Source: Methyloversatilis universalis (GTDB lineage Bacteria > Pseudomonadota > Gammaproteobacteria > Methylococcales > Methylococcaceae). Taken from it: a stretch of 64,000 bases of DNA. Location: contig DYIL01000001.1 in NCBI GenBank assembly GCA_020723665.1, positions 124,001 to 188,000 of the forward strand, written 5' to 3'. A program made the translations under genes and the position numbers. Position 1 is the first letter of the stretch, and the number at the start of each line of letters is the position of its first letter. The notes under the pieces were generated by a model. The model was not told where the DNA came from, ran no database searches, and worked only from the letters and a program-made list of their open reading frames with translations. Shown in pieces: positions 31,380 through 63,447 of the stretch.

Positions 31380-31508
31380 GGTTTGGCTGTCCTGAAACGA
31401 AACCAGGACAGCTTAAAAGCCCACGAAAACCGCGGTGTCCGGAAAGATTCACCCTAAGCGAATCTATCGCGCATCGCCCGTCTTTTTCCGGTGGCAAGCT
31501 ATCCCGCC

Positions 31509-34007
31509 ATGAAATCCCTGTTCGCTTTTTTCAGGAAGCCGCCGGCTTCCACATGGGCATCCGTCGCCGACGAGGACATTCCTCGTTATCCGCCCTTCGC
31601 CAAGGGGCTCCCCGTGGCGTCCGTCGCACGCATCCTCGCCACCCAGTCCGAGCTGGTGGACGCCCTCCGGCACACCTTGGCGCTACCGCGCGAGGAATTT
31701 CAGGCCATCGTCATGCCGGTCGTCGAACGCTATGCCGCATTCACGCATTTGTTGCCGGCCTCGGAAGCGCATCATCATCGCGGCGCCGGCGGCCTGTTCC
31801 GGCATGGTCTGGAGGTGGGTTACTGGGCGGCTATGGCCTCGGAGGGCGTGTTATTCGGAGCCGGCTCCACGCCCTTGGAGCGCAAGGGGCAGGAGCCCCG
31901 CTGGCGCCTGGCCGTGTGCCTGGCTGGATTGCTGCACGACATCGGCAAACCGGTGTCCGATCTCGCCATCCTGGACCGGGAGGGCAAGACCCGGTGGAAC
32001 CCCTACCTCGAGAACCTGACCGACTGGGCCGCAAAGAACGGTGTGGACCGGTATTTCCTGCGCTGGCGGGACAAGCGGCACCAGCGCCATGAGCAGTTCT
32101 CGGTTTTGGTGACCGAGCGCGTGTTGACCCCGGAGTGCTTGACCTACCTCACCCAAACCGGTCCCGAAATCATGCAGGCCATGCTGGAAGCGATCGCCGG
32201 CGTCGACCGAGGAAGCGTGTTTCATACCCTGGTGATCGAGGCCGATCGCAAGAGCGTGGAGCGCGACCTTAAGGCCAATCACCTTCCGGTGGATTCATCC
32301 TTGGGCGTACCGGTCGAAAAATACCTGCTCGACGCCATGCGAAGGCTGGTCAATAGTGGCCGGTGGAGCGCCAACTCGCGGGGCGCAAGGGTGTGGCGAT
32401 TCGACGAGGGTCTGCACGTCGTCTGGAAAGCGGGGGCTCAGGAGATATGCGAGCTGCTGGCCAAGGACAGGATTCCCGGTATCCCAAGAGACCCAGACAC
32501 CCTCGCTGATATCCTCATCGAGCGAGGACTGGCGATTCCGCGCAGAACTCAGGATGGGAGAAACTACCGCTATTGGCGCATGGCACCGGCCGAACTGGAC
32601 GTCGCCCTCTACATGCTCAGGCTGTCTTCGCCGGAGCTGATCTATCACGGCGAACCGCCTGTCGTCGTCGAGGGCCGGCTGCTGGAGGAGACGGAAAAAG
32701 AAACATCCCTGTCCAAGGGAAGGGCGGCTCCGGCGCTCCTGGAAAGGTCATCCGAGTGCTCCCCGGATGACCGTTTGCGATTGGAGATGCCGTTTGCGAC
32801 TGAGGAAGCGCGGAAACCGGCTATTCGGCTTGAACCCATTCCGGAACGGCCGGCACCGCCGCGCCTGAACGATACGGCCGCGCCATCGTGTGCAGGGAGT
32901 GAAACGGATTCGCGGACCATCGCGCCCAACTCCGAGCCTGCTGGCCGGGGCGAACAAAACGTCCCCAATGATGCCGTGCTTGTTCAACCGACCGAAGAAA
33001 AGCCCGCTCAGGAACAAGCCAGTTTCGCGGGCAGCTCCAGTTCCGGTCGCAAGCGGACGAGACAGGCGAATTCAGAGAACACGAAATCCAAGCTGGACGA
33101 GAAGCAAAATCAGCCGAACCCGACTCACGAACAATTTCTCCCATCGAACAAGCCGTTCGATTCAGATGACAAGCGGCATGAGTTGGAAACGAAAGCCGCC
33201 CACTGGCTGGCCTCGCAAGGCCTCGCCGGCGAGTGGCTGCGTGCCGCCATCGAGGCGTATCGAAAATCTCCGGCTGTTCCTGTGCGCGAAGTCGACGGAT
33301 TGGTACTCCTGCCTCATCCGGACCTGGCCCGGAAGCTCGGCAAGGACCCCGGCGAATCGCTTCGGCTTCTCGACGAAGCCGGCTGGATCGAAACCGACGT
33401 GCTCGCGCCCATGCGGAAGATTCGCGAAATCAACGGTATCCGGGGGGTGATGCTGAATCGGGAAACGAGCCGCTGCTGGTGGGTACTGGCCGGCGATCCC
33501 GAGTTCGAGGAAGAGAAAGTCCTTAAACCCACGGTGACCGTGCCGCGCGTGAGTAAAAACGAGTCACCCAACACCGCGGCCGAGGCCAAAAAGGCGCCAG
33601 CCCCCGGAAAAACCGCAAGAACCGCTCCCGAAAAGACGGTCTCGGCCACTACCGAATCAGAGGCAGTCCCGCCGACGCGAATCAAGCAACCCACTTCGGG
33701 GATGAACGAACCGGCCACGCGCCCCGAACGAACCCAGACACCTCAGAGCGTACCCAAGCCATCCCTGGACAGGAAACCCGAGACGGGACCGGCCGACGAC
33801 CTTATCGGGCGGATCCGGGAACGAGAAGATTTGCCGTGCCCGGTGGATGAGTCCCCGGAATGGTTGTCCGTACCGTACACGATCATCGACTGGTACGTGG
33901 AACTTCATCCGGGACTCACCCGGTCCCGGCTGATCATCGCCCTCTATCGTCATAGTGAAACGCAGCTGGAAGGCAACAGTATTCTGAAGGTCCGTAAGGA
34001 GTCGTAA
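31509..34007 (+). CDS. traI: MobH-family relaxase TraI
   Basis: An 832-residue relaxase of the MobH family, which nicks oriT and leads the strand into the recipient. The TraI_2 domain is N-terminal: HHHRGAGGLFRHGLEVGYWAA (residues 88-108) and the HD motif LLHDIGKP (141-148) provide the metal-binding residues. A long, Pro/Glu/Thr-rich variable linker (about 400-540 and 680-770) separates the C-terminal DUF1528-type domain. ATG at 31509 is chosen; a GTG six codons upstream is the alternative. It ends two bases before traD. Confidence 0.9.
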   Translation: MKSLFAFFRKPPASTWASVADEDIPRYPPFAKGLPVASVARILATQSELVDALRHTLALPREEFQAIVMPVVERYAAFTHLLPASEAHHHRGAGGLFRHGLEVGYWAAMASEGVLFGAGSTPLERKGQEPRWRLAVCLAGLLHDIGKPVSDLAILDREGKTRWNPYLENLTDWAAKNGVDRYFLRWRDKRHQRHEQFSVLVTERVLTPECLTYLTQTGPEIMQAMLEAIAGVDRGSVFHTLVIEADRKSVERDLKANHLPVDSSLGVPVEKYLLDAMRRLVNSGRWSANSRGARVWRFDEGLHVVWKAGAQEICELLAKDRIPGIPRDPDTLADILIERGLAIPRRTQDGRNYRYWRMAPAELDVALYMLRLSSPELIYHGEPPVVVEGRLLEETEKETSLSKGRAAPALLERSSECSPDDRLRLEMPFATEEARKPAIRLEPIPERPAPPRLNDTAAPSCAGSETDSRTIAPNSEPAGRGEQNVPNDAVLVQPTEEKPAQEQASFAGSSSSGRKRTRQANSENTKSKLDEKQNQPNPTHEQFLPSNKPFDSDDKRHELETKAAHWLASQGLAGEWLRAAIEAYRKSPAVPVREVDGLVLLPHPDLARKLGKDPGESLRLLDEAGWIETDVLAPMRKIREINGIRGVMLNRETSRCWWVLAGDPEFEEEKVLKPTVTVPRVSKNESPNTAAEAKKAPAPGKTARTAPEKTVSATTESEAVPPTRIKQPTSGMNEPATRPERTQTPQSVPKPSLDRKPETGPADDLIGRIREREDLPCPVDESPEWLSVPYTIIDWYVELHPGLTRSRLIIALYRHSETQLEGNSILKVRKES

Positions 34008-54017: not shown

Positions 54018-54544
54018 TGAGAGGACTTGCCACCATCGTCTTCGCGCTCACGCTGGCCGGCTGCTCGACCACCAAGTATGCATGCAAGGGCATGCCGGAG
54101 GATCCCACCTGTCTGTCGGCCGTGGACGCTTACAAGGCCACGGATAAAGCCAGCACCACGATCCGTCCGACGGACGCCACCGCCCCGACATCCGCATCCA
54201 CGACGCCCCTAGCCACCGCGATTCCGCCGGCCGATCCGGTACCGGCGCCCAAAATCGACGATCCCACGCCGATCCGGACGCCCGCCAAGGTGATGCGCGT
54301 GTGGGTGGCGCCCTGGGAAGACGCCGACGGCGATCTCAATGTCTCGGGCTTCGTGTTCACCGAACTCGAGCCGCGTCGCTGGATGATCGGCAAGCCCTTA
54401 CCGACGATGAGTCCCTCGATCTCGCCGCTCCAGGTCCTGCACCGGACCAAGGAGCTTGGGCGGAAACCGGCGCTCCCTGCGGAAAAAGACCAGGAGACGC
54501 CGATGGCCCCGTTATACGGCGAGCCCGAGGAGGCGGATCACTGA
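54014..54544 (+). CDS. traV: Conjugal transfer lipoprotein TraV
   Basis: A 176-residue outer membrane lipoprotein of the channel core. Lipobox LTLAGC, then the Cys pair YACKGMPEDPTCLS typical of TraV, a Thr/Pro-rich linker, and VMRVWVAPWEDADGDLNVSGFVF. The ATG at 54014 overlaps the dsbC stop. Confidence 0.9.
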   Translation: MMRGLATIVFALTLAGCSTTKYACKGMPEDPTCLSAVDAYKATDKASTTIRPTDATAPTSASTTPLATAIPPADPVPAPKIDDPTPIRTPAKVMRVWVAPWEDADGDLNVSGFVFTELEPRRWMIGKPLPTMSPSISPLQVLHRTKELGRKPALPAEKDQETPMAPLYGEPEEADH

Positions 54545-54669
54545 TTTCACCGGCTGCGTGTTCGCGCAGACCGAGTCCTGGGCGGGCGACCGCCCCAGCA
54601 TCACCGGAAGTCCACCCCTTCCGAGGCCCGGCGGGCAACCGCCTTCTACCTGGAAAAGTGAGATGAAAA

Positions 54670-54987
54670 ATGCCAAATACCATGCCCAATGGCCGCGGCC
54701 TGCTGGTCGCCGCGCTCGCCGCTCTCGCCATGCTGCTGATGCTGGTAGCCACGAACTCCTTCGCGGGGACCGGCGGTTCGACCGAATTCGGGTCCATCTA
54801 CACCATGCTGACCGGCTGGTTGCAGGGCACGCTCGGCCGCATCCTGGCCATCACCTTCGTCGCCGTCGGCCTGGTCGGCGGCGTGGTGCGCGGCAGCATC
54901 ATGGGGTTCGTGCTGGGGATCGCCGCCGGTCTCGGTCTCTACACCGCGCCGACCGTGATCGACGCCATCGTGACCGCGGTCATTTGA
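54670..54987 (+). CDS. traA: Pilin TraA
   Basis: A 105-residue prepilin: long leader (cleavage probably at NSFA-GTGG, leaving about 73 residues), then two hydrophobic helices separated by a short basic loop, as in F-type pilins. It lies in the position of traA in related operons. Confidence 0.8.
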   Translation: MPNTMPNGRGLLVAALAALAMLLMLVATNSFAGTGGSTEFGSIYTMLTGWLQGTLGRILAITFVAVGLVGGVVRGSIMGFVLGIAAGLGLYTAPTVIDAIVTAVI

Positions 54988-55066
54988 TCGGCGAGAACCG
55001 GAGGCTTGGCCCTCCGAGAAACGGCGGGAAACCGTCGACCCTTTATTGATCGTGAGGCGAACCGCC

Positions 55067-55267
55067 ATGTCCACTGTACTCGTCTTCGATATCCAGGGTA
55101 CAGCCCTGAACCCATGTCACCCGGCCCGTGCCCGCCAACTCGTCCGCAAGCAACGCGCGGAGGTCGTGTCCACGCGCCCCTATGCCATTCGTCTGGTGTC
55201 TCGGGAATCTCCCACCTGCGGGACCGCTCGGCCAAACCGCCCCATCCGGCTCTTCGATGAAGCCTGA
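55067..55267 (+). CDS. Stand-alone RRXRR/PLMP-domain protein (IscB N-terminus-like)
   Basis: A 66-residue protein: VLVFDIQGTALNPCHPARARQLVRKQRAEVVSTRPYAIRL matches the short N-terminal domain of IscB-type proteins (RRXRR, or PLMP domain: usually G-x-PLMPC-PARAR-LL-x-G-A). None of the RuvC, bridge helix or HNH parts follow; the next 22 residues are unrelated and then a stop. GTGAGG lies upstream of the ATG at 55067. It is inside the tra operon between traA and traC and overlaps the traC start by 11 bases, so it is translationally coupled. It could be a domesticated RNA-binding fragment or a remnant. Confidence 0.7.
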   Translation: MSTVLVFDIQGTALNPCHPARARQLVRKQRAEVVSTRPYAIRLVSRESPTCGTARPNRPIRLFDEA

Positions 55268-57656
55268 ACAGCCCCCCCGGGCGAGCCGGCTGTTTTCGGT
55301 GCTGGCCTACGACCGCGAGGGCGGGCTGTTTCTGATGGAGGACCGCAGCCTTGGCTTCGGATTCCTCTGCCAGCCCCTGTCCGGCGCCGATCCCGCCGTG
55401 GCCGATCGCGTCAACGTGCTGCTGAACCAGGAATGGCCGGTCGACACGCTGTTGCAGGTAAGCCTGTGGACCTCGCCCGACATCGATCCCACCCTGGCGC
55501 TGATGCAGACTCGTCGGATCGATCAGCAGCAGCCGTTCTACCAGGACATGGTGCGAGCCGGCGTCGAGTTTCTCCGCCGGGGCACTCAGGCGCCTCTGGA
55601 AAGCACGGCCGGTACCCGCATCCGCCGCACGCACGTCATCATCTCCGTGAAGCTGCCGATGGCGGGATTCAAACCCGCCGAAAAGGACCTGCAGCGCGCC
55701 GCCGAATTGCGCCTGTCGACCTGGCAATCGTTGAGCACGATCGGCCTTCGGCCCGAGACGCTGAGCTCGGATCACTACGTCCGCCTCCTGACCACGATGC
55801 TCAACTGGAGCCCGGACGCCGGCTGGCACGATCAGGTGGTGCCCGAGTGCGATCCGACCCAGCTTATCCGCGATCAGTTGTTCGACTACGACAACGACCT
55901 CAGAACCGATGCCAGGGGCCTCTGGCTGGGAGAAAAGCGGGTCAAAACGCTCTCCGTAAAGCGCTATCCGGACCGCGTCTATTTCGGCTCGGCCATGAGC
56001 TATCTCGGCGATGTGATGTCCGGTACCCGCGGGATCCGCCAGAACGCGCTCCTGACGCTCACGATTCACTATCCGGATTCCGAGGCGACGAGGGCCTCCC
56101 TGGATACCAAGCGCCAGTGGGTCACCCATCAGGCCTACGGGCCGATCCTCAAGTTCCTTCCCCAACTGGGCCTCCGCAAGCAGAATTTCGACGCCTTGTT
56201 CGAGGCCTTCCTGGACGGCGATCGCCCGGTGAAGGCCTATTTCGGCGCGGTGCTGTTCTGCCACCCGGACGAGGAGGCCCAGGCGGTGTCCAACGCCCGC
56301 GTGTACTTCCGGGAGCTGGGCTTCCAATTATTGGAAGACCGGTTCTTCTGCCTGCCGTTCTTCCTCAATTGCCTGCCCTTAGGGGCCGATCGCCTGGCGA
56401 TCCGGGACAGCAACCGGTACCGCACCCTGGGGACGCGCCATGTCATTCCCCTATTGCCGCTGTTCGCCGACTGGCCGGGCACGGGCACGCCGACCCTGAA
56501 CTTCGTCTCCCGCAACGGCCAGCTGGTCAACGTGTCCCTGTTCGATTCCGGCTCGAACTACAACTGCTGTATCGCCGCGCAATCGGGTTCCGGCAAGTCC
56601 TTCCTGACCAACGAGATCATCGTCAACTATCTCACCGAGGGCGCGCGCATCTGGGTCATCGACGTGGGGCGCTCCTACCAGAACCTCGCGGAAACCCTGG
56701 ACGGCGAGTTCATGGCATTCAGCGCCGAAAAGCAGATCTGTCTGAATCCCTTCGAACTGATCCGCAGCTGGGAGGAGGAAGCCGACGTGGTGGCGGGACT
56801 GGTGACTGCCATGGCCGCGCCCACCGAAAAACTGTCCGACTATCAGACCGCCGGGCTCAAGCGGGTCCTGAAAGCCGTCTGGGATGCCAAGGGTCAATCC
56901 ATGACCGTGGACGACATCGCCGCAGGCCTTTGCGCGGAAACCGACCGCCGCCTGGTCGATGTCGGGGAACAGCTCTTTCCGTTCACGACCCGGGGCGAAT
57001 ACGGCCGCTTCTTCAACGGCCGGAACAACATCCGTTTCGCCGGTGATTTCACCGTGCTGGAACTGGAAGAGCTGAAAGGCCGCAAGCATTTGCAACAGGT
57101 CGTCCTGCTCCAGCTCATCTACCAGATCCAGCAGGAAATGTATCTGGGCGAACGCGACCGGCCCAAGATCGTCATCATCGACGAGTCCTGGGATCTCCTC
57201 AGCCTGGGCGATGCGGCCACCTTCATGGAGCACGGCTACCGCCGGTTCCGCAAATACGGCGGAGCGGCCGTCACCATCACCCAGTCCGTCAACGACCTGT
57301 ACCGGTCCCCGACGGGACGGGCCATCGTCGAGAACTCGGCCAACATGTACCTGCTGGGTCAGAAGGCGGAAGCGATTGAGGGCATGAAAGCCGACCGACG
57401 CTTGCCGCTTTCCGACGGCGGTTACGCACTGCTCAAGACCGTGCACACCATCCCCGGCGTCTACTCGGAGATCTTCTTCATCACCGAGCGCGGCACCGGC
57501 ATCGGGCGTCTGATCGTCGATCCGTTCAAACGCCTCCTGTTCTCGACGCGCGCGGACGACGTCAACGCCCTCAAGCAACTGCGCCGCCAGGGGTTGAGCC
57601 TCCAGGAGGCCATTCATCGGCTCCTGGCGGAAAAGGAGAAATCCCGTGCCCCTTAA
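55257..57656 (+). CDS. traC: Pilus assembly ATPase TraC
   Basis: A 799-residue VirB4-type ATPase powering pilus assembly. Walker A is SGSGKSFLTNE (near residue 443); Walker B is KIVIIDESWDLLSL (near 640), followed by GAAVTITQSVNDL. The N-terminal domain has the family GFGFLCQPLSGADP. The start at 55257 overlaps the small RRXRR-domain gene. The 799-residue length is normal for the group. Overlaps the next gene by 11 bases. Confidence 0.9.
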   Translation: MKPEQPPRASRLFSVLAYDREGGLFLMEDRSLGFGFLCQPLSGADPAVADRVNVLLNQEWPVDTLLQVSLWTSPDIDPTLALMQTRRIDQQQPFYQDMVRAGVEFLRRGTQAPLESTAGTRIRRTHVIISVKLPMAGFKPAEKDLQRAAELRLSTWQSLSTIGLRPETLSSDHYVRLLTTMLNWSPDAGWHDQVVPECDPTQLIRDQLFDYDNDLRTDARGLWLGEKRVKTLSVKRYPDRVYFGSAMSYLGDVMSGTRGIRQNALLTLTIHYPDSEATRASLDTKRQWVTHQAYGPILKFLPQLGLRKQNFDALFEAFLDGDRPVKAYFGAVLFCHPDEEAQAVSNARVYFRELGFQLLEDRFFCLPFFLNCLPLGADRLAIRDSNRYRTLGTRHVIPLLPLFADWPGTGTPTLNFVSRNGQLVNVSLFDSGSNYNCCIAAQSGSGKSFLTNEIIVNYLTEGARIWVIDVGRSYQNLAETLDGEFMAFSAEKQICLNPFELIRSWEEEADVVAGLVTAMAAPTEKLSDYQTAGLKRVLKAVWDAKGQSMTVDDIAAGLCAETDRRLVDVGEQLFPFTTRGEYGRFFNGRNNIRFAGDFTVLELEELKGRKHLQQVVLLQLIYQIQQEMYLGERDRPKIVIIDESWDLLSLGDAATFMEHGYRRFRKYGGAAVTITQSVNDLYRSPTGRAIVENSANMYLLGQKAEAIEGMKADRRLPLSDGGYALLKTVHTIPGVYSEIFFITERGTGIGRLIVDPFKRLLFSTRADDVNALKQLRRQGLSLQEAIHRLLAEKEKSRAP

Positions 57657-60720: not shown

Positions 60721-63447
60721 ATGGGCGCGGCCTCTTGGTTCTCCGAGTATCCGGGGACGACTCGGGCGATTTGCGCAAGTCTCGCGCTGGTCCTGTTCTG
60801 GACGCCGGTCTATCGCGCCGTCGCCGACGCCATGCAGGACAGCGCGAAGCTCGGACAGGCTGCGGCCAGGAAAAGCATCCAGGACTTTCCCTTGCCGGCG
60901 GTGAGCGAGGATGGGCAGACCCTGACCCTGTTCCCGGGCACCGGCCAGGATCTCGACATCCCGGCTCAGGCGTTGTTTCCCGATTCCGGCAACGGTCAGT
61001 CCTCGACCTTCACCAACCTGTATGGCGATAACGCCAACGCGGTTTCCGCCGGCTTGGGCGCCCAGACCACGCTCAAGACCGAGGCCAGCCCGACGGGGGA
61101 GGCCTACCGGACGCTGGTCAAGGCCGCCAACCGCTCCCACCCCGATCTGACCCAGGATCCCATCTGGGGATCGACCGACTACGTCATGGCCAATCATGAC
61201 TTGTTCGCGAAAGACTTTGCGGATTGCACGTCCACCACCGTGTTCAAGGACACGACTCTTACTGCCAGGCTCCCGGACTACAAGACCTGCGTGCGAGGCC
61301 CCAATCCGCCGCCGAACTGCACCGCCAACCGTCAGTACACCGTCTCGCGGGAGACCGCGGAGGTCAAGCTCGGCACGGTGGGCAAGCACGATGTGTCGTT
61401 CACCTTCGATCTCAGGAACGGAACCGGGTCCTGGTGGAGCGACATCGGTGCGGGCGGCCAGGTGGTCGTGCCCAAGCTGGACTACGCCAAGATCTGCGAC
61501 GGCTCGGGCGCTTACAAGATCCGCCATATCAAGACGGTCGGCTGGACCGACTCCGGTCTTTGGGGTTCGGACGGCGGTTATCAGGTGGATGATTCGGTTT
61601 CGCAGGGCCTCTCGCAAATGCCGTCGTGCGCCAACGGCCTGGTCGGCAAGTTCTGGCAGCACGACGTGGGCGATGGCGATTGGGTCATGGCCGCGAAGCT
61701 CTACTTCAGCGCCGAGAAGATCGAAGCCATCGACTGGCTATGGTCGAATGCCCGATGTCCGGATCTGATGAACGCCATCCAGGACAACCTGTGTCCAAGC
61801 GCCAGCGTCACCTGCAGCGCGGACCCCGGCGTGTACAACGGGACACAGAAATGCTTCGAATATAACGGCGTGCAGATCTGCGAGTCGGACCTGCCCGACC
61901 CGCTTTTCCCGAACCTCAGCAAGACCTGCAGCACAGTATCCCTCGCCACCGATTGCGACTTCGGCGGGACCGGGAGCACGAATTGCTGGACGGACATCAA
62001 CGGCGCGACGGTTTGTCCCGGCGATTTTGCCGGACAGGGCCAGATCGAAACGTGCAAGACGCTCGAACAGCAAGGCTGCGCGTTCATCCGCTCGGATTGC
62101 GTGGATGGAACGACCGGCGACGCCACGGGCACCTGTTGGCTTTACAAGGATGTCTACGACTGCGGCACGACCACAACGATTCCGACCACGGAGGGTTCCA
62201 CGAAACAGGAATGCGCGGGCCCCGTCCGTTGCATGGGCGAGGAGTGCGTCGCCATCGACCGCCGGCAGAGCAAGGACTTCACCCGTGCGGTCGCGGCGCT
62301 CAACGCCGCTCAGCAGATGGCCATGGACACCGGCTGCGAGACCGTGACCAATTATCAGCAAGGTCAGGGTTTCGAGTTCACGACCTGCAGCGTCTTCAAG
62401 GGTGAAGGCGGGACGTGCAAGACCGTGGGCGCCTTGGTGACCTCGGTGGATTGCTGCAACGCACCGACCAGTATCGGGCTGGGGGAGTACATCGACCTCA
62501 TCACCAACATCAGCCAGATGAATAACGCCGTCATGCGATTGGATGCCACCAACGCGGTTCGCAGTGGCTGGGAAGTACTCAGCGGGCCGGTGACCGACGC
62601 CTGGAGCAGTGTGACCGAGCTCTATGCCGGTGCGGTGGATTCCACCATTGGCCAGTTTTCCGAAACAGCGGCGGATTTTCTCAAGAGCTCCTTGATTGAG
62701 GAGTTTTCCGCGCTGGCCATGGAAAAAGTCGCCACCTGGGTCGGCGAAACCTTCGGCGGTGCCGCCGGGAATCTGATCTTCAGCTCCGGCGGAGCCGCCG
62801 CCTTCTCGGAGTCCGGCGCGCTGAATCCCGGCGTCACGGGGTCCACCCTGCAGGTGGGCGGCGGCGCGGCGATGATCGGTTCGATGCTGAACGTCATCAT
62901 GATCGCCTACGCCGTTTATCAGATCCTGGTGATGATCGTGCAACTGATCTGGCAATGCGAGCAGAAGGAATACGAATTGGCGGCGAAGAAGAGTCTGAAA
63001 GCCTGCACCTATCTGGGTTCCTATTGCGCCACCAAGGTGCTTGGCATGTGCGTGGAAGAACGGGAAAGCTATTGCTGCTTCTCGTCCCCTCTGGCTCGCA
63101 TTCTTCAGGAGCAAGTCCGCCCTCAGCTCGGGTTATCCTTCGGCGACAAGAAAAGCCCGGATTGCAGCGGCATTCCCATCGAGAAACTGGCCGACATCGA
63201 CTGGAGCCGGGTCAATCTGGATGAATGGATCGCCATCCTCCAGTCCACTAACCACTTGCCTACAGCCGCGAATGCCGCCCAGAAGCTCAATCTGGACCAA
63301 CTGACCGGGCAGGGTAGCCGTTTCAATGTGGACGGCACCCGACTGAATACGCTGGATCGTAACGTCGAACGCATAAAAGGGTTGGACATTCCGGCCATTC
63401 GCGATCAAGCGGAAGGGGAAGGCTGGGGTATGGGGCCAAAGAACTAG
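60721..63447 (+). CDS. traN: Mating-pair stabilisation protein TraN
   Basis: A 908-residue Cys-rich outer membrane protein that helps recognise recipients. An N-terminal signal (AICASLALVLFWTPVYRAVA), then a central Cys-rich region (over 20 Cys between about residues 340 and 580, e.g. CSADPGVYNGTQKCFEYNGVQICESDLPDP) and a hydrophobic segment (NVIMIAYAVYQILVMIVQLIW). DsbC and TraF from the same element probably form its disulfides. Last gene of the tight operon. Confidence 0.9.
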   Translation: MGAASWFSEYPGTTRAICASLALVLFWTPVYRAVADAMQDSAKLGQAAARKSIQDFPLPAVSEDGQTLTLFPGTGQDLDIPAQALFPDSGNGQSSTFTNLYGDNANAVSAGLGAQTTLKTEASPTGEAYRTLVKAANRSHPDLTQDPIWGSTDYVMANHDLFAKDFADCTSTTVFKDTTLTARLPDYKTCVRGPNPPPNCTANRQYTVSRETAEVKLGTVGKHDVSFTFDLRNGTGSWWSDIGAGGQVVVPKLDYAKICDGSGAYKIRHIKTVGWTDSGLWGSDGGYQVDDSVSQGLSQMPSCANGLVGKFWQHDVGDGDWVMAAKLYFSAEKIEAIDWLWSNARCPDLMNAIQDNLCPSASVTCSADPGVYNGTQKCFEYNGVQICESDLPDPLFPNLSKTCSTVSLATDCDFGGTGSTNCWTDINGATVCPGDFAGQGQIETCKTLEQQGCAFIRSDCVDGTTGDATGTCWLYKDVYDCGTTTTIPTTEGSTKQECAGPVRCMGEECVAIDRRQSKDFTRAVAALNAAQQMAMDTGCETVTNYQQGQGFEFTTCSVFKGEGGTCKTVGALVTSVDCCNAPTSIGLGEYIDLITNISQMNNAVMRLDATNAVRSGWEVLSGPVTDAWSSVTELYAGAVDSTIGQFSETAADFLKSSLIEEFSALAMEKVATWVGETFGGAAGNLIFSSGGAAAFSESGALNPGVTGSTLQVGGGAAMIGSMLNVIMIAYAVYQILVMIVQLIWQCEQKEYELAAKKSLKACTYLGSYCATKVLGMCVEERESYCCFSSPLARILQEQVRPQLGLSFGDKKSPDCSGIPIEKLADIDWSRVNLDEWIAILQSTNHLPTAANAAQKLNLDQLTGQGSRFNVDGTRLNTLDRNVERIKGLDIPAIRDQAEGEGWGMGPKN

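Follow-up and report, generated by a model that had tools for sequence, protein, structure and literature searches.

Analysis of a 64,000-nucleotide stretch of Methyloversatilis universalis DNA (contig DYIL01000001.1, positions 124,001 to 188,000; the whole stretch is referred to here as the window) revealed an F-type conjugation operon in which a short gene between traA and traC encodes a stand-alone RRXRR/PLMP domain, the N-terminal part of the IscB-type proteins of OMEGA RNA-guided nuclease systems. The gene is accompanied by three double hairpins that resemble the end of the omega-RNA of those systems. It is probable that the PLMP domain and the omega-RNA terminal hairpins were co-domesticated from an OMEGA system, the protein being a putative binder and regulator of tra leader RNA. 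The elements concerned are listed below, where R1 is a covariance model built from 35 distinct copies of the double hairpin of tra operons, E is the expectation value and dN/dS is the ratio of nonsynonymous to synonymous substitution rates.

55067..55267, + strand, stand-alone RRXRR/PLMP protein of 66 aa (PF14239 match, homologues, dN/dS, PLMP-like fold)
54549..54597, + strand, double hairpin copy 1, before traA (R1 27.1 bits, E = 3.2e-5; two-hairpin fold)
54603..54646, + strand, double hairpin copy 2, before traA (R1 49.8 bits, E = 6.7e-11; two-hairpin fold)
54997..55039, + strand, double hairpin copy 3, before the RRXRR gene (R1 44.4 bits, E = 1.5e-9; two-hairpin fold)

The frame at 55067-55267 (+) consists of 66 unbroken codons from an ATG start to a TGA end, and encodes a basic protein with an isoelectric point of 11.1. 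When searched with hmmscan, the protein matched the RRXRR family PF14239 with E = 3.9e-10 and 40.3 bits, above the curated cut-off of 25, though only 46 of the 174 profile positions were covered (residues 4-49 aligned with positions 1-46). The NCBIfam model for IscB, NF040563, matched residues 4-48 with E = 1e-10, a match that lies far under the full-length cut-off of that model. Given this partial coverage of both profiles, the protein is the N-terminal PLMP part of an IscB-type protein and little else. RuvC was not found, nor HNH as in IscB: the frame stops after 66 residues and the traC frame comes next. An earlier note, made by a model from the DNA letters, had described an intact frame for a lone IscB-type N-terminal domain without RuvC or HNH, and the profile search bears this out. 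No second RRXRR match was found in the 3.93-Mb genome of origin, and 14 control genomes gave none.

Conservation of the gene was assessed from TraC matches in 311 genomes of the order, taken to be Methylococcales, which gave at least 85 places in 55 genomes when the best three candidates per genome were taken. Six places were left out as their TraC match was incomplete (G274:C35, G207:C1:360936, G253:C86, G013:C218, G205:C95 and G249:C406); 79 were examined, and with the removal of L140, which had no TraC match in its piece, 78 usable operons remained. Of these 78, 55 have an intact open RRXRR frame in the traA-traC interval. All 55 belong to one TraC clade, in which full-length TraC is at least 70% identical to that of the window; the partial TraC match of L141 shows 62% identity. 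By contrast, RRXRR was found in none of the 23 operons whose TraC is ∼60% or 45-50% identical to that of the window, 20 of them being fully informative, L142 having no upstream DNA, and L131 and L133 having ∼300 and ∼190 bases, respectively. The view that RRXRR is a general accessory of F-type operons was rejected on the basis of these 23 operons of the order and of its absence from 11.4 kb of R997, which is described below.

The RRXRR frame is under selection. Median dN/dS for the domain is 0.15, and all 158 pairs compared fall below 1 (45 distinct sequences from 52 loci; L077, L106 and L107, without the exact core motif, were left out). Comparison of the window with its three closest relatives gave 0.36-0.44 for the domain and showed a C-terminal tail that is nearly unconstrained. 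Distances between RRXRR domains track those between the corresponding TraC proteins (Mantel r = 0.87; 0 of 2000 permutations as high). In the window, the traC start codon (ATG at 55257) overlaps the end of the RRXRR frame (55267) by the 11 bases that the earlier note had reported, and all 55 loci show such an overlap of the RRXRR stop with the traC start, of 4 bases in 46, 8 in 4, 11 in 4 and 17 in 1. Stop-start overlaps of this kind commonly reflect translational coupling. Given the 55 intact copies, the low median dN/dS and the conserved overlap with traC, the gene is not decaying. The earlier note had allowed for a decaying leftover, which these data contradict, and had counted homologues that were absent or randomly broken in related operons as evidence against its reading; across the traA-traC gaps of the 55 operons they are neither.

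The double hairpins were found by reading the intergenic gaps. Each element has the layout CC-stem1-GAG-NNN-stem2, with a GNRA loop on the second stem, and copies 1 and 2 occupy 93 of the 125 bases of the traV-traA gap. Every one of the 55 RRXRR loci contains an R1 copy, with one to three per locus: two before traA and one after it in 40 loci, one and one in 6, none and one in 5, one and none in 2, and two and none in 2. Counted R1 hits of these loci fall nowhere else in the pieces and none is on the opposite strand; this tally leaves out matches with E > 0.05 (L070 2870, L109 2877, L103 1591, L137 2814 and L136 3936, the last on the opposite strand) and nine weaker matches in the window. In the 23 loci without RRXRR, no R1 match was observed at E ≤ 1, and the sole match at E ≤ 5 was a ten-base fragment with E = 2. 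Similarly, a scan for the strict motif found it in 47 of the 55 RRXRR operons and in 0 of the 23 others. Across 12 whole genomes or plasmids, strong R1 hits lie at tra loci, except for two at a contig end of G005 and a cluster of three in G203. The latter (G203:C1:1247708-1248178, minus strand) shows the usual 2+1 spacing, lies away from the three best TraC places of that genome and is probably another tra operon.

Two R1 matches were taken as chance: one of 28.2 bits at G000:C106 (its surroundings being L160) and one of 17.2 bits at 62785-62817 of the window (minus strand, E = 0.0098). The score of copy 1 is thus not by itself above the genome-wide background, yet its position is conserved in relatives. 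No complete omega-RNA (HEARO) was found: no Rfam model reached its gathering score anywhere in the window, and within 54300-55600 the sole match at E ≤ 5 was to a miRNA, taken as chance. The earlier note had suggested looking nearby for an omega-RNA-like structure; the complete RNA is not what is present, but a tail-like double hairpin is, in three copies within 54549-55039.

Many of the iscB and isrB genes that were fetched are preceded by such a hairpin pair, which forms the end of the omega-RNA immediately 5′ of the start codon, as in the leaders of L184 (CC-GGC-GAAA-GCC-GAG-AAC-CTTGGG-GTAA-CCCAAG) and L144 (CC-GGCTC-TTTG-GAGCC-GAG-AC-GATGAG-GTAA-CTCATC). The same terminal pair, CC-stem1-GAG-NNN-stem2-GNRA before a PLMP-coding gene, is found in the window copies. 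The strict motif occurs in 12 of 57 distinct 90-base iscB/isrB leaders, whereas 300 rounds of dinucleotide shuffling produced 0.007 on average and never more than 1. R1 was also applied to 45 IscB-type loci on viral contigs, none of which has any of the tra genes of the window beside it. Here, the five best matches (L198, L210, L202, L203 and L184, of which L203 is a near-copy of L202) all lie in the leader directly 5′ of the gene, as do 6 of the 15 matches at E ≤ 10. With filters off, R1 matched the leader in 10 of 11 loci that had been chosen for showing the motif. What ties the tra hairpins to omega-RNA tails is their position, together with the shuffle test. An alignment of omega-RNA tails (A3) was set aside with stem 1 misplaced, and no model was built from it.

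The fold of the 66-aa protein was predicted with a predicted local distance difference test score (pLDDT) of 73.6 from an alignment that contained IscB rows, so that the prediction is not independent of them; an alignment-free prediction reached a pLDDT of 47 and was not used. The best fold matches are nine IscB/IsrB chains (Z 7.6 to 5.9, root mean square deviation (rmsd) 2.2-3.3, 56-60 residues aligned), although a Z score below 8 alone can reflect a common arrangement, and Foldseek gave E = 4.8e-4 against 9k30_A. The M of the PLMP motif occurs in 21 of 27 IscB-type rows but in none of the 55 tra proteins; its loss may reflect a lost contact with RuvC. In the IsrB structure report, PLMP is described as binding the tandem hairpins SL7/SL8 and contacting the Shine-Dalgarno sequence (PMC9581776), and that for OgeuIscB describes recognition of the terminal hairpins by PLMP (PMC9640706).

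These observations can be accommodated in the following model. An IscB/IsrB-type OMEGA locus would have donated to a conjugation operon its PLMP domain together with the terminal hairpin pair that this domain grips, while the guide, nexus, RuvC, HNH and the parts that read the target-adjacent motif would be absent from the operon's version. The small basic protein, made from tra mRNA, would bind the double hairpins of that same mRNA. Binding would lower translation of its own gene and, via the overlapping stop and start codons, of traC; it would also lower translation of traA through the two upstream copies that are present in most operons, so that pilin and ATPase would be kept in step. Given the three omega-RNA-tail-like double hairpins at 54549-55039, the likely ligand would be the mRNA leader of the operon itself rather than DNA in transfer. 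The domesticated, nucleic acid-binding fragment suggested by the earlier note is therefore upheld as regards domestication (55 of 55 copies intact, low dN/dS) and partly supported as regards binding, where the ligand is one that we infer. The fuller proposal, a split, guide-less OMEGA ribonucleoprotein in which a lone PLMP domain recognises copies of the terminal hairpins and thereby forms a feedback regulon balancing TraA against TraC, is advanced more tentatively than the shared origin of domain and hairpins.

As for the direction of any such regulation, repression appears likelier than activation: in 19 of the 55 operons, no ATG, GTG or TTG separates the hairpin loop from the domain, which places the hairpin within the RRXRR coding sequence. 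A possible start follows the hairpin in 33 (in some just a TTG), and 3 have no hairpin at the RRXRR gene.

Several points weigh against this interpretation. The 55 operons form a single clade, and the co-occurrence of gene and hairpin thus counts as one origin, not as 55 independent ones. In the R1 alignment, 94.9% of cells retain their pairing and 74 changes are double-sided, compared with 78.0% and 21.7 in shuffles, and every slid version scores worse; however, these covariation figures are flattered, since the copies were picked by a scan that demanded pairing, and 138 of 500 shuffles reach the observed total of 6 pairs that show double changes. The copy adjoining RRXRR is missing in L134, L137 and L138, and in L104 at the cut-off, and L068, L069, L071, L109 and L139 have no copy before traA. 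In the window, the hairpins leave the ribosome sites uncovered, and how binding would act there is not evident. The R1 E values on IscB leaders are weak, with a best of 0.018, and a default run over 19 IscB and related loci gave nothing significant, the one match being a ten-base fragment in the L032 leader with E = 3.6. Finally, the OgeuIscB report describes IscB contacts to the terminal hairpins as mainly sequence-independent (PMC9640706).

The main rival, considered unlikely, is an activating role of the PLMP protein in translation akin to that of initiation factor IF3. All three window hairpins precede start codons, the N-domains of IF3 are the next fold matches after the IscB/IsrB chains (6o6d, Z 3.6, rmsd 7.0, 50 aligned; 1tif, Z 3.4, rmsd 7.8, 52 aligned), and a likeness to IF3 is remarked on by the IsrB authors (PMC9581776). 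These fold matches are weak, with Z ∼3.5 and rmsd of at least 7, and the position of the hairpin within the reading frame at 19 of 55 loci would be a poor spot for an activator of initiation.

Slightly less probable still is a partnership of the RRXRR protein with TraC or the mating pore, which would account for the position of its gene beside traC; the hairpins would then serve a separate purpose such as mRNA stability or processing. The traC overlap in every locus and the parallel divergence from TraC would fit such a partnership. Against it, TraC of the sister operons works without RRXRR (0 of 23), and the hairpins accompany RRXRR in all 55 loci and resemble what the domain binds in IscB and IsrB.

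That the hairpins are unrelated to omega-RNA tails and share their shape by chance, the protein being domesticated for some other RNA or DNA, is improbable. The weak E values on IscB leaders leave room for it, as does the PLMP tree, whose 47 columns cannot name a donor. This tree comprises 95 PLMP domains, of which the 41 from tra operons group together (2 changes, as opposed to a mean of 31 after shuffling), and a long-branched IscB, L037, is placed among them; a single origin of the tra PLMP domains is neither shown nor excluded by so short an alignment. The order of parts, however, is identical, with the same unpaired CC and GAG and far in excess of shuffles, the placement relative to a PLMP-coding gene is the same, and even convergence could still mean that PLMP binds the hairpin pair. 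The last alternative, a decaying remnant of an inserted iscB, would explain why the N-terminal domain alone remains and why its tail is nearly unconstrained among the nearest relatives, but is hardly credible for a gene that is intact in 55 of 55 operons, with a median domain dN/dS of 0.15 and a conserved traC overlap.

The proposed co-domestication of the domain and its hairpins can be set beside several known systems. The tra protein resembles IscB and IsrB in its homologous first 45 residues, its predicted fold and the position of its gene directly behind a hairpin pair, and differs in having no RuvC, bridge helix, HNH, WED or TI part and no M in the PLMP motif. The hairpins resemble SL7/SL8 (TH1/TH2) of the omega-RNA (Rfam RF02033, HEARO) in their layout directly before a PLMP-coding gene, whereas they have no guide, nexus or HEARO match in the window, occur in up to three repeats and are also found before traA. 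Autogenous repressors of translation, ribosomal proteins and phage coat proteins among them, include small basic proteins with a hairpin near their own start and coupling to the next gene. The tra RRXRR protein shares the small size and basic character, the hairpin close to its start codon and a probable translational coupling, here to traC; its fold and origin are different, and regulation here is putative. TldR proteins are regulators derived from TnpB, a transposon-borne RNA-guided nuclease, that have kept the guide RNA and target DNA. In contrast, the tra RRXRR protein has lost both guide and nuclease, and its likely target would be mRNA.

A stand-alone PLMP/RRXRR protein with hairpins of its own was not found in the open-access papers searched, subscription papers and bioRxiv being outside the scope of the search. 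Both the domain and the hairpin pair are already known; what is new, as far as could be seen, is that they occur apart from a nuclease and a guide and within a conjugation operon. If the model is correct, a member of the Cas9 lineage has dropped its nuclease and guide and retained its RNA-recognition module. On the fuller proposal, control by PLMP of the start codon that follows the hairpins, so far suggested for isrB only, would be an old and separable function, and the protein would represent a new class of RNA-binding regulator descended from Cas9 ancestors. It is also a likely conjugation regulator, borne by plasmids and chromosomes of methanotrophs and unlisted in plasmid gene tables. With a 66-residue protein and a 43-base RNA, two questions would become accessible to experiment: the purpose of the PLMP domain, and a role of omega-RNA tails in regulating the translation of iscB and isrB.

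The genes that flank the RRXRR frame and are presumed to be under its control are as follows.

54670..54987, + strand, traA, pilin, the presumed target gene (NF041281 TraA_gammapb, E = 1.7e-28)
55257..57656, + strand, traC, VirB4-type ATPase (TIGR02746, E = 2.3e-207), its start overlapping the RRXRR stop by 11 bases

The order of the F-type operon is traB, dsbC, traV, traA, RRXRR, traC, a hypothetical gene, an S26 peptidase gene, trbC and traU, in agreement with the conjugation operon recognised in the earlier note. TraF, TraH, TraG and TraI_2 proteins are located elsewhere in the window, the last at 31491-34007; TraI_2 denotes the MobH-type relaxase family. The traC frame is mechanically open back to a GTG at 55128 (55128-57656, 842 aa). 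Two observations favour a start at 55257 instead: it is where the TraC matches set in, and the overlap that it creates with RRXRR is conserved.

Four Methylomonas plasmids (L033, L034, L035 and L242) carry an RRXRR frame at traC that has no entry in the plasmid gene table, which is incomplete; in L033, L034 and L242, the locus tags jump by one number at its place. After these four, the nearest TraC in the plasmid collection is that of R997 from Proteus mirabilis (NZ_KY433363.1), with 60.8% identity and a similar gene order. The slot between traA and traC of R997 (L243:1928-3650) holds an AbiEi/AbiEii-type gene pair and dsbC where RRXRR sits here, and the slot may therefore be a site of gene gain.

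Beyond the order, matches to profile A1 were obtained in at least 11 of 369 genomes of a class sample and at least 2 of 398 of a phylum sample, with the genome of origin in each and the best 15-17 candidates per genome considered. A search of the phylum sample with NF040563 was unusable, nearly every match being confined to the HNH part of the model. Apart from the gene itself, the A1 matches are long IscB-like frames, two short IscB remnants and one fusion. The remnants (L150 and L155) are open frames of 116 and 87 aa with an IscB-type N terminus and an omega-RNA-like leader, and are probably broken iscB genes. On plasmid pPHS1_P of Paraburkholderia graminis (L036:5001-5465), a 154-aa protein missing from the plasmid gene table combines an RRXRR-like start with HNH (PF01844, E = 7.9e-7) and leaves no space for RuvC. 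The fusion (L152:1489-2232) places a PLMP-like domain (E = 9.7e-10 with the own RRXRR profile) ahead of a QueH epoxyqueuosine reductase (PF02677, E = 1.2e-56), a tRNA-modifying enzyme, which is possibly another RNA-binding use of PLMP outside OMEGA systems.
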